Shown here: positions 27,839 to 34,489 of the stretch, one piece after another | How the letters are laid out: every line of letters begins with the position of its first letter | Numbering within the stretch: the stretch's first letter is position 1 | Made by a program: the position numbers and the translations under genes | DNA from: Actinomycetota bacterium | GTDB lineage: Bacteria > Actinomycetota > Thermoleophilia > Solirubrobacterales > JACPNS01 | NCBI GenBank assembly: GCA_016213645.1 | Contig: JACQZY010000010.1 | Location: 1-64,000, forward strand | Direction: 5' to 3' | DNA length: 64,000 bases | The notes under the pieces: model-generated | Seen by the model: the letters and a program-made list of their open reading frames with translations, nothing else | What the model was told of the DNA's origin: nothing | Databases searched by the model: none

Positions 27839-28267
27839 ATGGCGCGCAATCGCCAGAAAGCCAAGCAGCGCAAGGCCCGCCGGGAACGGCAGGGCGTCGC
27901 CCCCGTTCAGGCGCGTTCCGACGCTGCCAGCTCGGCCGGTGAGGCGCCGCCGCAGGACGCCGGTTTCGCCAACACCGACGCGGTCGAGGTCAAAGACGAG
28001 CTCAAGCGCGAGGCCAAGGTCGCGAAGAAGCAGCCGGCCGCTCCGGCAAAGGCTCAGACCAAAGGCGCCGCCCCGCAGCCGAAGGAACGCGGGCGATTGA
28101 TGGCGTTTCTGCGTTCGTCGTGGGCGGAGCTTCGCCGTGTGCAATGGCCGGACCGCAAGCAGATGACGACGATGACTTCGATCGTGATCGGCTTTGTGAT
28201 CATCGCCGGTGTTTATCTCGGCGTGATCGACTGGGTCGCCAACAAGGTCGTCAACCTGATCATCTGA
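27839..28267 (+). CDS. secE: preprotein translocase subunit SecE
   Basis: 142 residues. The C-terminal 60 carry the SecE signature: LRSSWAELRRVQWPDRKQM followed by one membrane span (TSIVIGFVIIAGVYLGVIDW). The N-terminal 80 residues are a low-complexity basic and Ala/Pro/Gln-rich extension, longer than in Escherichia coli-type single-span forms but common in actinobacteria. SecE clamps SecY in the SecYEG channel. It is 6 bases after rpmG and 40 bases before nusG, clearly one operon. Confidence 0.95.
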   Translation: MARNRQKAKQRKARRERQGVAPVQARSDAASSAGEAPPQDAGFANTDAVEVKDELKREAKVAKKQPAAPAKAQTKGAAPQPKERGRLMAFLRSSWAELRRVQWPDRKQMTTMTSIVIGFVIIAGVYLGVIDWVANKVVNLII

Positions 28268-28307
28268 TCAGGGCAGCCCCCGCCCCCCGAGAAGAGACGT
28301 AAATCAA

Positions 28308-28886
28308 ATGTTTTCCTGGTATGCAATCAACACTTATTCCGGTCACGAGAACAAGGTCAAACAGAACCTTGAGCACCGCGTCGTCTCGATGAACCAGAAG
28401 ACCGCGATCCGCAGGATCGTGATCCCTACGGAGACCGTCACCGAGATGAAGGACAACCAGAAGGTCGAGAAGGAAGTCCGCACGATGCCGGGCTACCTCT
28501 TGGTCAACATGGAGCTCAACGAAGATTCTTGGGGCGTTGTCAAGGGCACGCCCGGCGTGACCGGGTTTGTCGGTTCCCAGACCGATCCCGTGCCGCTGGC
28601 GCAGAGCGAGGTCGACCGACTGCTGGCCAACGCCGATCTTCAGGTCAGCGTGGGTGCGGGCGCCGGTGGAGGCGCCGGTGGAGGCGCGGCTTCGCGTCAG
28701 ACTCCCGTGGTCGCGGCCTTCTCGATCGGCGAGACTGTGAAAGTGGTCTCCGGCCCGCTGTCCGATTTCTCGGGCGAGATTGCCGAGATCAACGAGGACG
28801 CGCACAAGCTCAAAGTGCTGGTTTCGATCTTCGGCCGTGAAACACCGGTCGAGGTCGGTTACGACCAGGTCAAGAAGGTTTCGTAA
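28308..28886 (+). CDS. nusG: transcription termination/antitermination protein NusG
   Basis: 192 residues. The NGN domain begins WYAINTYSGHENKVKQNLEHR and includes MPGYLLVNMELNEDSW and TPGVTGFVG. A Gly/Ala linker (GAGAGGGAGGGAA) separates it from the KOW domain (IGETVKVVSGPLSDFSGEIAEI). Both domains are intact and of normal size; the glycine linker is a lineage feature. NusG binds the beta' clamp helices of RNA polymerase and links it to Rho or the ribosome. It lies 22 bases before rplK. Confidence 0.97.
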   Translation: MFSWYAINTYSGHENKVKQNLEHRVVSMNQKTAIRRIVIPTETVTEMKDNQKVEKEVRTMPGYLLVNMELNEDSWGVVKGTPGVTGFVGSQTDPVPLAQSEVDRLLANADLQVSVGAGAGGGAGGGAASRQTPVVAAFSIGETVKVVSGPLSDFSGEIAEINEDAHKLKVLVSIFGRETPVEVGYDQVKKVS

Positions 28887-28908
28887 AAGGTTTTAGAGAG
28901 GCGTAGCG

Positions 28909-29331
28909 ATGGCCAAGAAGGTAATGACACTGATCAAGCTGCAGGTCCCCGGCGGACAGGCAAATCCGGCTCCGCCGGTCGGCCCCGCGCTCGGTCAGCA
29001 CGGCGTCAACATCATGGACTTCTGCAAGGCGTTCAACGCCCAGACGCAGCAGGACAACGGCACGATCATCCCGGTCGAGATCACGGTCTTCGAGGACCGC
29101 TCGTTCACCTTCATCACGAAGACGCCTCCGGCCGCCGTGCTGATCAAGCAGGCGATCAAGATTCAGAAGGGCTCCGGCGTGCCGCACCTCGAAAAGGTCG
29201 GCAAGATCACCGAAGCCCAGCTTCGCGAGATCGCCGAGATGAAGATGCAAGATTTGAACGCGAACGACGTGGACGCGGCGATCAAGATCATCGCCGGCAC
29301 CGCGCGTTCGATGGGAGTGGAGGTCGTCTGA
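28909..29331 (+). CDS. rplK: 50S ribosomal protein L11
   Basis: 140 residues, full length. The N-terminal domain shows [20 protein letters not shown] and [16 protein letters not shown]; the C-terminal RNA-binding domain shows RSMGVEVV at the end and [19 protein letters not shown]11 binds 23S rRNA at the GTPase-associated centre. The stop overlaps the rplA start by 1 base (TGATGG), showing tight coupling. Confidence 0.97.
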
Positions 29332-30044
29332 TGGCGCGAGGCAAGACTTACAACGAGGCATACGGCAAAGTCAACCGCGAGCACGAGTACGACCCGCGCG
29401 AGGCGATCGAACTTGTGAAGGGCTCGCAGCGCGCGAAGTTCACCGAGAGTGTCGAGGTTCACATTCGCACCGGCCTGAACGTGCGCCATGCCGACGAGCA
29501 ACTGCGTGGCACGATCACCTTCCCACAAGGTTTGGGCAAAGAAGTGAAGGTGGCCGTCTTCGCCAAGGGCGACGCCGCTTCTGACGCGGAGGCTGCAGGC
29601 GCCGACTACGTAGGCGCCGAAGACCTCGCCAAGCAGATGGAGGAAGGCCTGACCGACTTCGACGTCGTCATCGCCACGCCCGACATGATGCCGGTCGTCG
29701 GTGGCCTGGGCCGCGTGCTCGGCCCGATGGGCAAGATGCCAAACCCGAAGGTCGGCACCGTCACACCCGACGTGCAGAAGGCGATCAACGAGGCCAAGGC
29801 CGGCAAGGTCGAGTACCGCACCGACCGCCAGGGCATCGTGCACATGACGATCGGCAAGACCAGCTTCGAAGCACAGGCCTTGCTTGAGAATTACGCCGCC
29901 CTGATCGACGAGATCGTCCGCGCAAAGCCCAGCGCCGCCAAAGGCAAGTACCTGCGCACGATCACGATCGCCAGCACGATGGGTCCCGGTGTCCGCGTGG
30001 ACACCAGCAAGACTCGCGACATTCTCGAAGAACAAGCTGCGTAG
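29331..30044 (+). CDS. rplA: 50S ribosomal protein L1
   Basis: 237 residues. Conserved segments: [53 protein letters not shown] and [15 protein letters not shown]1 forms the mobile L1 stalk and in many bacteria represses its own operon. In most bacteria rplJ follows directly; here the next gene is on the opposite strand and rplJ lies 2.2 kb away, so co-transcription of rplKA with rplJL is unlikely. Confidence 0.97.
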
Positions 30045-30082
30045 ACGCCGGCGCGTATTGCCGGCCACTGGGACGGTTGCGA

Positions 30083-31900
30083 CTACGCGGATGCCGCGTC
30101 GTATAGATCTCGCTGGGGTGGATTGGAAAGGATCTTACGAACCTCAGAGGCTCTGGAGCGTGGATGTAGGTCGGTGAAGCGGAAGCGCTTACCTTCGATG
30201 TTGAAGGTGATTCCGTGACGGCCGATGCCGATCGGTTTCACGCTTTCGACAGCGTGACGTGGGAAGTTGAGAAATTCTTCCTTGCGCAAACCGGCGTATA
30301 GAAAGAGCAGCCGCCGGTCGGTGACGACGAGCAATCCTGCCTTGATACCTCGTGAGGCCTCGGCGAGTGTGAGTGGCAACTCGCCGTCCTCGAGCACGTT
30401 CGGTAGCAGCGAGAGCTCTGTCGAGACGACCCAGCGACGCCTGAGCTTCTCGTCTACAAGCTTGTCCACAATGGCGATCCGATCGTTTTTCAGCTGCTGC
30501 AAACCTCCGGGAGCGAGTGCCTCGATCACTCGCCCGATCTCGTCCGACTGCTTGAAACTGCTCGGTTTAAAAGTCATCCAGAGCAGATCCTCCCCGAGGA
30601 CCGTAATCTCGCCATTGTCTGCGCATGTAATTAGCGCGATCCGATCGGCCGGTACGGCATGGATGGTCCCCTTGCGCTCAAGCGCGACTCCCTCTTTTCC
30701 GACAATCAGCGAATCCTTTCCGAGCAGCCCCTTCTGCGCGAAACGCTGACCACAAACGGGATACGTCGGGGGGTCCCACTCTCGCAGGCGCGGGTCCGGC
30801 TTCGCAACGTGTGGTGGCGCCACGAGGATCGCACGGTCCGAGGAATCCGAGAACTGCTCACGGATTGTGTCGATTGTGACTGCCGTCAGTTCCGTTTTCA
30901 ACTCGATCTCGGATTGGAATCCGCTGCCGAGAAGTTCCTCGTTGACGGCACGGTTGAGCGCCGATCGTTCCGGAGTTGTGTTTTCAGCGAAATCCCGGAG
31001 CGCTCTCTGCTTCACGGAGGTGAGCTCCGCCTCAGACGGACCGTGTTCCGCGATATTTCTAAGTTCCTCCCAGACAGCGGCGGTAACGTGCTCAGAGTCC
31101 CGATCGAGGCACTCCGCTCCAAGCACAACGTGCGCTTGTTCTCCTCCAATTGCCTGGTAGTCGTCGAGGATTGAATACACCACGCCGTCACGCCGCCGAA
31201 GGCGTTCGAAAAGCCGATCATGCATGATCCTGAGCGTGAGCGTGGCTTCAAATGATCGTGGCATCTGCAATCCCACCGCAGAGGCGCCGCCGATTTCCGG
31301 ATTGAACGACGGAAAAGCGACGCCGTCAAGCGGCCGTGTTTCAGGCAATTGCCATCGTTCACCATCGCGGAATGGCAGCTCCCACCGCGGTAACACCGGC
31401 CCGTGCACCCATAACGCGGCGTTGCCTCGCGTGAAACCTGAGCGGCACCAGGCGGCAAGGTCCGTCTCCTTTATCCACTCGAGACCCAGCTCCGGCAGAG
31501 CGATGACGCCGTAATCGCGATACCCGTAGCGCAGCGAAAGGAGATGCTGGTCGACAGTCATCCCCGTACCGGCCGCCTCTGCGGTCAACACCTTCGTTTC
31601 GGTCGCGAACCGGTCGAGTGGCGGTGCGTTTAGAGCGCCGACGACATGCGAGAAGAAGCCTTCTAATTCGGTCATCGTCCCGGCTGCGAAGAAGTTCGTC
31701 GAGGTCAGGTCGACCATTGCATTGAAATCGTGTTTCGTCTCGACGAATGAGTGCAATGCGAGATGCTCAACGAGGTGTGTGATGCCGCGATGGATTGGCC
31801 GCTCATCGGCTATCCCGACGCGGAATTGAAGGCTAGCCATCGCCGGTTCTGGCCCCTCCGTGTAGAACAACGGAATTCCCGAGAGTTCCCCCCTAATCAT
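30083..31900 (-). CDS. M16-family (insulinase-type) metallopeptidase with C-terminal PH-like domain
   Basis: 605 residues from ATG 31900; the frame is open to 32122 but homology starts at GELSGIPLFYTEGPEPAMAS. The inverted zinc motif HLVEH (His42, Glu45, His46) is followed about 75 residues later by a candidate third ligand in FATETKVLTAEA. The second half domain of M16 proteins is present around TLRIMHDRLFERLRRRDGVVY. The last 100 residues (GIKAGLLVVTDRRLLFLYAG... FNIEGKRFRF) match the bacterial PH fold. The active-site residues are complete, so activity is plausible. It has no signal peptide. It is inserted antisense between rplA and rplJ. The function is unknown; related soluble M16 peptidases process peptides. 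Confidence 0.85.
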   Translation of the reverse strand: MIRGELSGIPLFYTEGPEPAMASLQFRVGIADERPIHRGITHLVEHLALHSFVETKHDFNAMVDLTSTNFFAAGTMTELEGFFSHVVGALNAPPLDRFATETKVLTAEAAGTGMTVDQHLLSLRYGYRDYGVIALPELGLEWIKETDLAAWCRSGFTRGNAALWVHGPVLPRWELPFRDGERWQLPETRPLDGVAFPSFNPEIGGASAVGLQMPRSFEATLTLRIMHDRLFERLRRRDGVVYSILDDYQAIGGEQAHVVLGAECLDRDSEHVTAAVWEELRNIAEHGPSEAELTSVKQRALRDFAENTTPERSALNRAVNEELLGSGFQSEIELKTELTAVTIDTIREQFSDSSDRAILVAPPHVAKPDPRLREWDPPTYPVCGQRFAQKGLLGKDSLIVGKEGVALERKGTIHAVPADRIALITCADNGEITVLGEDLLWMTFKPSSFKQSDEIGRVIEALAPGGLQQLKNDRIAIVDKLVDEKLRRRWVVSTELSLLPNVLEDGELPLTLAEASRGIKAGLLVVTDRRLLFLYAGLRKEEFLNFPRHAVESVKPIGIGRHGITFNIEGKRFRFTDLHPRSRASEVRKILSNPPQRDLYDAASA

Positions 31901-32256
31901 GTGGACCAGATTAACTTCACCGAAGACGACGATTTGAGTGAAAGGAGCATCCTGTACAGGTTCGGCAATGAGCCGCGGAATCTGAAGACTGAGTCTGAAG
32001 ACTGAGGATTCGCAAATTCGCTTTGCCGATCGGGGAAGGCCGGAATCTCTTTCTCGAGCCATGGCGTGCCATTGCGGCCCTGATACATTCAACCCCTCGC
32101 CCGAGACACCGGGGCGCGGCATCGCGGCTTACCGTCGCAATCACTCGCCGCACAACTCCCGGTCAGGTGTGACGCCGCCGAGCTTCGGTGTGCTCGTCTC
32201 ACCTTTTTGTCGTGTGCGCACCAGCCCGGGCGGGACCTACGCACAGGAGACTTAAA
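31901..32256. other. divergent intergenic region between the M16 gene and rplJ
   Basis: 356 bases with no convincing gene. It should hold two opposite promoters and the rplJ leader. In other bacteria the rplJ leader binds the L10/L12 complex for autoregulation, and there is room for this here (about 150 bases of leader), but I could not identify the conserved kink-turn with confidence. AGGAG lies just before the rplJ GTG. Confidence 0.4.
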
Positions 32257-33054
32257 GTGAACAGAGACCAGAAAGCAGCCTTCATCGACAACGTGGCCGA
32301 GCGTGTCGAGGGGTCGAGCGCGATCTTCGCGGTCGACTATCGCGGCATCAGCGTGCCGCAGGTCGCCGAGCTGCGCGCCAAGTTGGGCGAGGCAGACGCA
32401 AGTTTCCAGGTGGTCAAGAACACCTTGACCCGCCTGGCGCTCGACAGGGCCGACGGCGCCGGTAAGACCGGCAGCACCGACCTCAAGGAGTTTCTCGAAG
32501 GTCCGACCGCATTCACTTACGTGAAGGGCGATGTCGCCCTTGCCGTGAAGGCGATCGCGAACTTCACCAAGGAATACGAGCTGCTTGAGTTCAAGGGCGG
32601 CATCATGGACGGTCAGATCATCACGATCGACCAGTTCAAGGCACTCACCAAGCTGCCCAGCCGCGACGTGCTCAACGGCCAACTTGTGGGCATGATCGCT
32701 ACGCCGATCACCGGCGTCGTGCGCACGCTTAATGCGCTGATCAGCGGTCTGGCGATTCAGCTCGGTCAGATTGCGGAAAAGGGCTTGGTCAGTGGCGAGG
32801 CCAAACCGGCCGCCGCGACACCCGCTGCGCAGGAAGCCGCTGCGGAGGAAGCCGCGGAACCGGAAGCTGAAGTCGCGTCCGCCGATGACGCCGAAGTAGC
32901 TGAAGCAGCACCCGAAGCCGAAGCGGCACCCGAGGCTGAAGCAGCCCCGGCCGACGAGGCATCAACGGAGGATTCCGCTGAAGACGGACCCGCTGAGGAT
33001 GCACCCGCCGAGGACGCTCCGGCCGAAGACCCCCCGGCTGAAGACGCCGAGTAA
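32257..33054 (+). CDS. rplJ: 50S ribosomal protein L10 with long acidic tail
   Basis: 265 residues from GTG 32257, preceded by AGGAG. Residues 1-175 are a normal L10: MNRDQKAAFIDNVAE, FAVDYRGISVPQVAELR, FQVVKNTLTRLA and the L12-binding helix near VRTLNALISGLAIQL. After about residue 178 comes a low-complexity tail of about 85 residues rich in Ala, Glu, Asp and Pro, with repeats such as EAAPEAEAAPEAEA and AEDAPAEDAPAED. Normal L10 proteins end near 165-180 residues. L10 anchors L7/L12 dimers on the ribosome stalk. Confidence 0.95.
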   Translation: MNRDQKAAFIDNVAERVEGSSAIFAVDYRGISVPQVAELRAKLGEADASFQVVKNTLTRLALDRADGAGKTGSTDLKEFLEGPTAFTYVKGDVALAVKAIANFTKEYELLEFKGGIMDGQIITIDQFKALTKLPSRDVLNGQLVGMIATPITGVVRTLNALISGLAIQLGQIAEKGLVSGEAKPAAATPAAQEAAAEEAAEPEAEVASADDAEVAEAAPEAEAAPEAEAAPADEASTEDSAEDGPAEDAPAEDAPAEDPPAEDAE

Positions 33055-33105
33055 TCCCATTCCACACCAATTTCAAGAGTTAGACAACTAAAGGAGACAA
33101 ACAAC

Positions 33106-33486
33106 ATGGCAACTTCAACCGCAGAGTGGATCGAAGAGCTGAAGGGCATTTCCGTGCTTGAGCTTTCCGAGCGCATCAAGGCCCTGGAAGAGGAGTTCGG
33201 CGTTTCGGCCACGGCGGTCGCCGCGGCGGCGCCCGCCGCCGGCGGCGGCGGTGACGCGGGCGGCGAGGAAGAATCCTCGACGGTCGACGTGATCCTCACC
33301 GGTGGTGGCGACAAGAAGATCCAGGTGATCAAGGTTGTGCGTGCCGCGACCGGCTTGGGCCTCAAGGAGGCCAAGGCGATCGTGGACGACGCCCCTCAGC
33401 CCGTCAAGGAAGGCATCGAGCGCGACGAGGCCGAGAAGCTGAAGACCGAGATCGAAGAGGCCGGCGGAAGCGTCGAGCTGAAGTAG
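33106..33486 (+). CDS. rplL: 50S ribosomal protein L7/L12
   Basis: 126 residues. N-terminal dimerisation helix ([18 protein letters not shown]), an Ala/Gly-rich hinge ([16 protein letters not shown]), and the C-terminal domain that contacts translation factors ([35 protein letters not shown]). Strong ribosome site AAGGAG upstream of ATG. It follows rplJ by 51 bases and is ended by a strong terminator, so the usual read-through to rpoB does not occur here. Confidence 0.98.
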
Positions 33487-33521
33487 TCGTCTTCGAAATC
33501 GCGTACTGAAAAATACGCAGC

Positions 33522-33553
33522 AAAAAGGCCCCTTCAGCGAAGGGGCCTTTTTT
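33522..33553 (+). terminator. Rho-independent terminator after rplL
   Basis: AAAAAGGCCCCTT pairs with AAGGGGCCTTTTTT around a short CAGCG loop; a T-run ends the stem. It is the clearest intrinsic terminator in the window and separates rplJL from everything downstream. Confidence 0.92.
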
Positions 33554-33700
33554 GTGGCAGGCGAATCAACGTGAGGCCGCACCGCGAGGGGAGCCGCATA
33601 CGCGACCATACGAAAATGGTCCAACCACTACTTTCGATGTCAAGAATATCGATATTGCGGCGATAATTCAATTCACCGCCGATTCTTGATGATGGACTAA

Positions 33701-34489
33701 GTGGAGATACGACAAAATAAGCGCGCACCGCTGCCCGATCAGGTTTTTGCCCACTTCGCGCACCGCATCATCAACGGCGACCTGAAGGCCGGTGATTCAT
33801 TGCCGCCAGAGCGTGAACTGGCCGAGCAGTTCGGAGTCAACCGGCATGTAGTACGCGAGGCGATCAAGCGCGCGCAGCAGGTGGGCCTGGTCACCGTGGT
33901 TCACGGCGGCGGCACCAAAGTGCTCGACGTGCGAGAGCATGCCGGTCTCGGCCTGCTCGAGTTACTGGCTCAGCACGCTGAGGAAGGCACGCTCACCTAC
34001 AAGTATTGGCTTTCAGTTGTCGAGATGCGCGTGGCGATCGCTGCCGACATCGCGCGGTTATGCGCCGAGCGTGCGCCGCGGGAGATCAAGGACGAGCTGA
34101 TTGATCTGGTCGATGCCATGCGAAACGCGAACGACGACATTGAACTACTCGAACTCGACGAGCAGTTCTGGTCGCGGGCCACTCGCGGATCGGACAATTT
34201 CGTCTACCGCCTTGCGTTCAACACATTGCTGACCGTTTCCGAGGTGATGCGCGACGCCTCCGCGTGGTGGACGGCCCAGGAGCTACGAAACTGCGATTTC
34301 AACTGCGCGATCGCGGACGCGATCTCAAAAGGGGATGGAGAAGCAGCGCGGCTGGCGGCCAGGCGTTCAATCGGAACGACACTCGAGGCACTGCGCGCGA
34401 TGAGCGAAGCGGAGGTCACTCACGCGATCGCGGAAACGCGCGGTGGCCGGAACGCCGGCACCGAACGGGCGGCTCGCCCGGAACGATAA
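33701..34489 (+). CDS. GntR-family regulator, FadR subfamily
   Basis: 262 residues from GTG 33701. The N-terminal winged helix has FAHRIINGDLKAGDSLPPER followed by ELAEQFGVNRHVVREAIKR and GLVTVVHGGGTKV. The C-terminal helical FCD-like effector domain follows, with Asp/His-type residues expected to bind metal or ligand. A charged tail ends in RGGRNAGTERAARPER. It lies 200 bases before pckG on the same strand. Because many FadR-type proteins respond to organic acids or acyl compounds, control of central carbon flux at pckG is a reasonable guess, but only by proximity. Confidence 0.9.
   Translation: MEIRQNKRAPLPDQVFAHFAHRIINGDLKAGDSLPPERELAEQFGVNRHVVREAIKRAQQVGLVTVVHGGGTKVLDVREHAGLGLLELLAQHAEEGTLTYKYWLSVVEMRVAIAADIARLCAERAPREIKDELIDLVDAMRNANDDIELLELDEQFWSRATRGSDNFVYRLAFNTLLTVSEVMRDASAWWTAQELRNCDFNCAIADAISKGDGEAARLAARRSIGTTLEALRAMSEAEVTHAIAETRGGRNAGTERAARPER

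Follow-up and report, generated by a model that had tools for sequence, protein, structure and literature searches.

A probable M16B-type peptidase with PH-like C-terminal domains encoded between rplA and rplJ in an actinobacterial genome

The results described below reveal an intact gene for an M16B-type peptidase between rplA and rplJ in the window, that is, the whole 64,000-nucleotide stretch of actinobacterial DNA analysed here. The protein is a member of an M16B family that has no name so far and occurs mainly in actinobacteria, and the explanation that we favour, and consider probable, is that it is a cytoplasmic, probably homodimeric M16B peptidase in which PH-like docking domains replace the membrane tail usual in the family.

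Gene and genomic setting

The open reading frame predicted in the earlier note is present exactly where it was placed, running from an ATG at 31900 to the stop codon at 30083–30085 through 605 uninterrupted codons.

30083–31900, minus strand: M16B-type peptidase gene, 605 aa, intact (open reading frame, homologues, AlphaFold model and VIA structure comparison).

The frame stays open for 74 further codons upstream of this ATG (to 32122), an extension unlikely to be used because the homologue alignments begin at about residues 1–7 of the protein as started at 31900. Since the homologues reach E-values down to 4e-72 in the profile search of genome contigs, the gene is far beyond chance. It stands tail to tail with rplA (29331–30044) and head to head with rplJ, which starts with a GTG at 32257 preceded by AGGAG. 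The gene had been described as antisense between the two; its position and its direction, opposite to both, are as described, whereas it overlaps neither of them and is not antisense to a ribosomal protein gene. Contamination was set aside, with rplA and rplJ flanking the peptidase gene on one 107-kb contig. The G+C content at third codon positions is 67.5%, against 73–88% in the neighbouring genes, which is in keeping with a later arrival. NCBIfam gave no match for the window peptidase and just two weak matches, far under the cut-offs, for four family or partner proteins, and a sequence search of the PDB with the window peptidase returned a single match (E 0.24).

Peptidase domains

The N-terminal part of the protein comprises two M16 domains carrying the following elements.

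31316–31900, minus strand: M16 domain D1, predicted catalytic, residues ~1–195 (AlphaFold model, VIA, hhalign).
31763–31777, minus strand: HxxEH zinc motif, H42-L-V-E45-H46 (H42, E45 and H46 invariant in the 60-row family alignment).
31577–31579, minus strand: E108, proposed distal zinc ligand (invariant in the same alignment; paired by hhalign with E123 of canonical M16 proteins).
30779–31315, minus strand: M16 domain D2, Peptidase_M16_C, residues ~196–374 (Pfam, AlphaFold model, VIA).
31175–31198, minus strand: R235...Y242, R/Y pair (both invariant in the same alignment; aligned with R273...Y280 of canonical M16 proteins).

In the AlphaFold model of the whole protein the mean pLDDT is 85.7, and values exceed 90 over most of the first 470 residues; residues 1–374 of this model correspond to an M16B subunit, the comparison with the PDB by VIA giving 3hdi_A at Z 33.3 (rmsd 2.6, 362 residues aligned). 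An hhalign comparison with five canonical M16 proteins encoded in related genomes (99.2%) set E108 on their E123 and R235/Y242 on R273/Y280 (A4 for the latter pair). By Pfam, Peptidase_M16_C scored 22.9 bits in the window protein (cut-off 23) and 42.6 bits in a relative (L132), and Peptidase_M16 scored 13.7 bits (cut-off 22.3). According to a 2025 review (PMC12731061), HxxEH, the distal Glu and the R/Y pair are the catalytic motifs of M16 enzymes, and all six residues concerned (H42, E45, H46, E108, R235 and Y242) are invariant in the 60-row alignment; the patterns used in finding relatives included the HxxEH stretch, so that its conservation is partly due to selection, whereas E108, R235 and Y242 were not selected for. 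Both the complete HxxEH motif and the assignment to the M16 peptidases, claimed earlier from the DNA, are borne out by these results, and, as to the general remark that two or four half-domains are normal in M16 proteins, the window protein has two M16 domains, the number usual for an M16B subunit. One relative (L008:1237-2559) has HLIQH instead of HLVEH and is perhaps inactive.

The closest known counterpart in fold is 3hdi, BHP of Bacillus halodurans, a homodimeric M16B enzyme that likewise has HxxEH, the distal Glu and the R/Y pair in one chain of two domains. In PMC12731061, homodimeric enzymes such as BHP are described as carrying HxxEH in both subunits, and the window protein, with a zinc site as well as an R/Y pair in its single chain, would fit this type. 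The window protein differs from BHP in the additional C-terminal PH-like domains and in a shorter stretch after HxxEH, the spacing from H46 to E108 being 62, as compared with 76 in BHP and with the H-to-E spacings of 72–76 that the same review gives for its two-chain M16B examples.

C-terminal PH-like domains

The earlier note had read a single PH-like pattern at the C-terminus. Its PH-like character is upheld, by the bPH_3 scores and by the structural model of the tail that had been suggested as a check; its number is not, the tail probably consisting of two such domains, in which a family-wide one that the earlier note understated precedes the bPH_3 domain.

30515–30748, minus strand: PH-like domain 1 as judged from the model, residues 385–462, family-wide (seven strands and a helix, block pLDDT ~88–96; PH-superfold matches).
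30122–30382, minus strand: probable PH-like domain 2, bPH_3, residues ~507–593 (Pfam bPH_3, models, double-PH matches by Foldseek).

The first domain, whose model of seven strands and a helix has high confidence and which is present in the family alignment, appears to be a real PH-like fold. Searched with VIA, residues 10–99 of the tail model, which hold this domain, yielded a list full of PH-superfold entries (best Z 7.9), including the bacterial PHb structure 3dcx_B (Z 7.3, 2.5 Å over 77 residues), where a Z below 8 may stand for a common arrangement; the same search barely tests the second domain. A Pfam scan of 68 members gave a match of bPH_6 to this first domain in 4 of them, the best at E 0.038, and no Pfam cut-off was reached.

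The second domain, at residues ~507–593, is predicted with lower confidence. Residues 509–592 have the same order of elements as domain 1 at pLDDT ~52–77, whether the full protein or the tail alone is modelled, and the bPH_3 element set, seven strands and a C-terminal helix, is present in both models at moderate pLDDT. The bPH_3 profile (PF14470) scored 20.9 and 21.2 bits on the window protein, just under the cut-off of 23 bits, and 23.4 bits, over the cut-off, in a genome-wide search, where it was the only bPH_3 match in the window's genome. When the tail was modelled alone (residues 372–605), the best Foldseek matches were the double-PH proteins SSRP1, Rtt106, Pob3 and Spt16 (E ~3e-4, TM-scores 0.2–0.3); what these histone chaperones share with the tail is the tandem PH-like arrangement, but they are eukaryotic, the TM-scores are low, and the resemblance shown is one of fold and not of sequence. 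With the bacterial PH domains (bPH_3, PF14470; PHb, PF08000, 3dcx) the likeness consists in the seven strands and C-terminal helix of the models and in the bPH_3 profile of the second domain, whereas those of the window protein are attached to a peptidase and the first of them lies below every Pfam cut-off.

The second PH domain was found in four genomes, all of one class, and the architecture of the window protein is repeated in L057 (on the same contig as G797; bPH_3 36.5 bits), in G763 and, with two frame changes, in G207. The G763 protein is homologous to the window protein over residues 3–591 (tblastn), with no Pfam PH match in its tail at E ≤ 1; the G207 gene lies in three parts in three frames, its tail scoring 15.6 bits with bPH_3, and its frame changes may be decay or assembly error. 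A single origin of the second PH domain is not supported: in a tree of 86 core sequences the four bPH-bearing rows do not form one clade and four changes are needed, at least two of them forced by well-supported branches, the bPH branches being long. Next to the peptidase gene lie what we take to be a CaCA-type antiporter gene in L057 and, presumably, a biotin-dependent carboxylase gene in G207.

Family distribution, tails and TPR-like partner

A single-sequence search of the genome contigs found no relatives. When an alignment of ten relatives was used instead, 369 of 454 candidate stretches proved to encode relatives, the best 80 of which were kept. Among the relatives listed, Actinomycetota predominate as hosts, the others being a few Chloroflexota and a single Eisenbacteria MAG. 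Distribution is sporadic: of 399 genomes sampled in the class, 9 contain a family member at about E 3e-42 or better, in two cases as partial matches only, and in a phylum sample the family is present in 6 of 396 genomes at E ≤ 1e-35; the much weaker matches in the class sample are ordinary M16 proteins that match mainly in the second domain. One genome (G108) carries two divergent members, L006 and L015, which would suit an unequal subunit pair. In the open-licence literature searched, neither this M16B family nor any M16 peptidase bearing a PH domain is described.

The tails vary among the best 80 of the 369 relatives. By our own hydropathy rule (19 residues, mean at least 1.6), 52 have at least one transmembrane segment and 19 are short without one, and the latter count as a counterpoint to membrane tethering, which is not universal; seven are fused to a TPR-like domain, one carries bPH and one is of another kind. 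By the same rule, none of the 80 has an N-terminal hydrophobic segment. A TPR-like partner gene lies adjacent in 47 of these 80 loci. This neighbour family comprises 49 open reading frames under 24 genus labels, 44 of them on the same strand as the peptidase gene and mostly touching it; its DUF4034 and TPR matches in Pfam are both sub-threshold. The seven fused tails, from Actinomadura/Actinocorallia (L063, L071, L077, L115, L116, L121 and L127), are C-terminal copies of this partner (E ~1e-72 or better). A search for the partner was negative in G000 (the genome of the window), G797, G763, G207, G211, G727 and G800 and positive in both controls (G107 and G108); in the window the PH tail coincides with the absence of both a membrane tail and the partner. 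The next neighbour cluster is an ABC ATPase, seen under eight genus labels and usually kilobases away.

The rplA–rplJ junction

None of the four further genomes available for the genus has the peptidase gene; the space between rplA and rplJ holds an RCC1/OmpA protein (G002), topoisomerase I (G004) or giant proteins with Ig repeats (G003 and, presumably, G001). An epimerase and a glycosyltransferase occupy the place in G010, a member of another family. Both rplA and rplJ were found in 58 of the 61 genomes searched, in 56 of them on the same contig, and the gap between them measures 81–400 bp in 41 of these 56 and 1340–32206 bp in the other 15, window included. Within the order, insertion or rearrangement has recurred at this junction. 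The giant repeat proteins next to rplA in two genus genomes (L178:3131-9547 and L179:1548-9326) have 2138 and 2592 residues, respectively, the former with Ig-like and thrombospondin type 3 matches.

31901–32256, no strand assigned: divergent gap to rplJ, its rplJ-proximal part conserved in the genus (genus comparison).
32081–32167, plus strand: rplJ promoter-like element TGNTANNNT at 32081–32089 and leader-like block at 32096–32167 (five of five genus genomes).

The block at 32081–32167 is kept in all five genus genomes whatever precedes it upstream, with the pattern CTCGCC...CGGGG...GCGGC...GCCGC...CCCGG following TGNTANNNT, and it has the appearance of a promoter and leader belonging to rplJ itself. 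The control of rplJ looks self-contained for this reason, which speaks against the earlier proposal that the two genes share a promoter region and are oppositely regulated. The block could be an L10-type leader, although no Rfam family, the L10 leader included, matched in 28000–34000 at E ≤ 1 or in 31880–32300 at E ≤ 10.

Discussion

The motifs and the M16B fold of the model suggest a zinc metallopeptidase of M16B type, which is probably cytoplasmic and each chain of which would contribute an HxxEH...E zinc site from D1 and an R/Y substrate-binding pair from D2. Because each chain has both sites, two identical chains could form a closed clamshell "peptidasome", as in BHP, into which short polypeptides would be admitted and there cleaved. 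As a docking module, the C-terminal part would combine the family's own PH-like domain with a second (bPH_3) that, in this branch, occupies the place where most relatives have transmembrane helices or a fused TPR-like partner. Such a tail would most likely keep the enzyme at the membrane, on its cytoplasmic face, or bound to a protein complex. Bacterial PHb domains, which belong to another family, were argued from their structure to be unfit for direct lipid binding and suited to protein contacts (PMC2817789), so a protein is no less likely than lipid to be the docking target.

A protein of this fold might instead have degenerated into a scaffold without catalytic function, for which the bc1 core proteins are the M16 model, as the weak Peptidase_M16 score and the HLIQH of one relative would allow; we consider this unlikely, given that the catalytic, zinc-ligand and R/Y residues are all invariant in the 60-row alignment, including the three that the search patterns did not favour. 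Still less room is left for a link with translation, in which the peptidase would be placed against rplJ for opposite regulation or would act on ribosomal or nascent peptides. The divergent arrangement with a gap of 356 nt is what recommends it, and it is very improbable in view of the gene's absence from the rest of the genus, the different genes that occupy the junction there, the location of other bPH relatives elsewhere (L057 and G207) and the separate conserved block of rplJ, to which a consensus scan adds that the gap has no sigma-70-like site, other promoter types being possible. The earlier note had itself named occurrence in unrelated places in relatives as evidence against such a link, and this is what was found; the gene does not behave as a member of the translation operon.

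Two further functions were considered, each of which we rate as improbable and to a like degree. Maturation of a ribosomal peptide natural product is the role of AlbE/AlbF (subtilosin processing), M16B subunits of the same fold and similar size that PMC12731061 counts among the prokaryotic M16B enzymes, and many of the named hosts among the best 80 of the 369 relatives are actinomycetes; however, AlbE/AlbF form a heterodimer in a peptide-antibiotic pathway, no such neighbourhood was seen at the loci of this family, and the TPR-like protein is their only conserved neighbour, followed by the usually distant ABC ATPase. The patchy distribution, the variable tails as docking modules and the lower third-position G+C content would also suit part of a conflict or defence system, against which stand the absence of PADLOC matches, whether for the window protein at E ≤ 10 or, at E ≤ 1, for four proteins drawn from the family and its partners, and of any match in phages, plasmids or viral contigs. 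An origin from a mobile element or phage was rejected on the latter result.

Returning to the docked M16B peptidase as the preferred reading, its wider form is more tentative, and we hold it to be somewhat short of an even chance: the family may represent an undescribed actinobacterial system, in which an M16B peptidasome with a PH-like domain of its own has a TPR-like partner, either as a separate protein or as a fusion, and is anchored to the membrane on the cytoplasmic side; the window would hold a partner-free form of this system with a second PH domain replacing the anchor. The position between rplA and rplJ is incidental to the function, rearrangement at this junction being recurrent in the order, which gives a negative answer to the question raised by the earlier note. 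According to PMC12731061, the functions of bacterial M16B peptidases are mostly unknown, and the combination of PH-like domains, membrane modules and a partner gene would provide a handle on site and substrate. Since the two are fused in Actinomadura, the peptidase–partner pairing can be tested directly in the genetically tractable Streptomyces.
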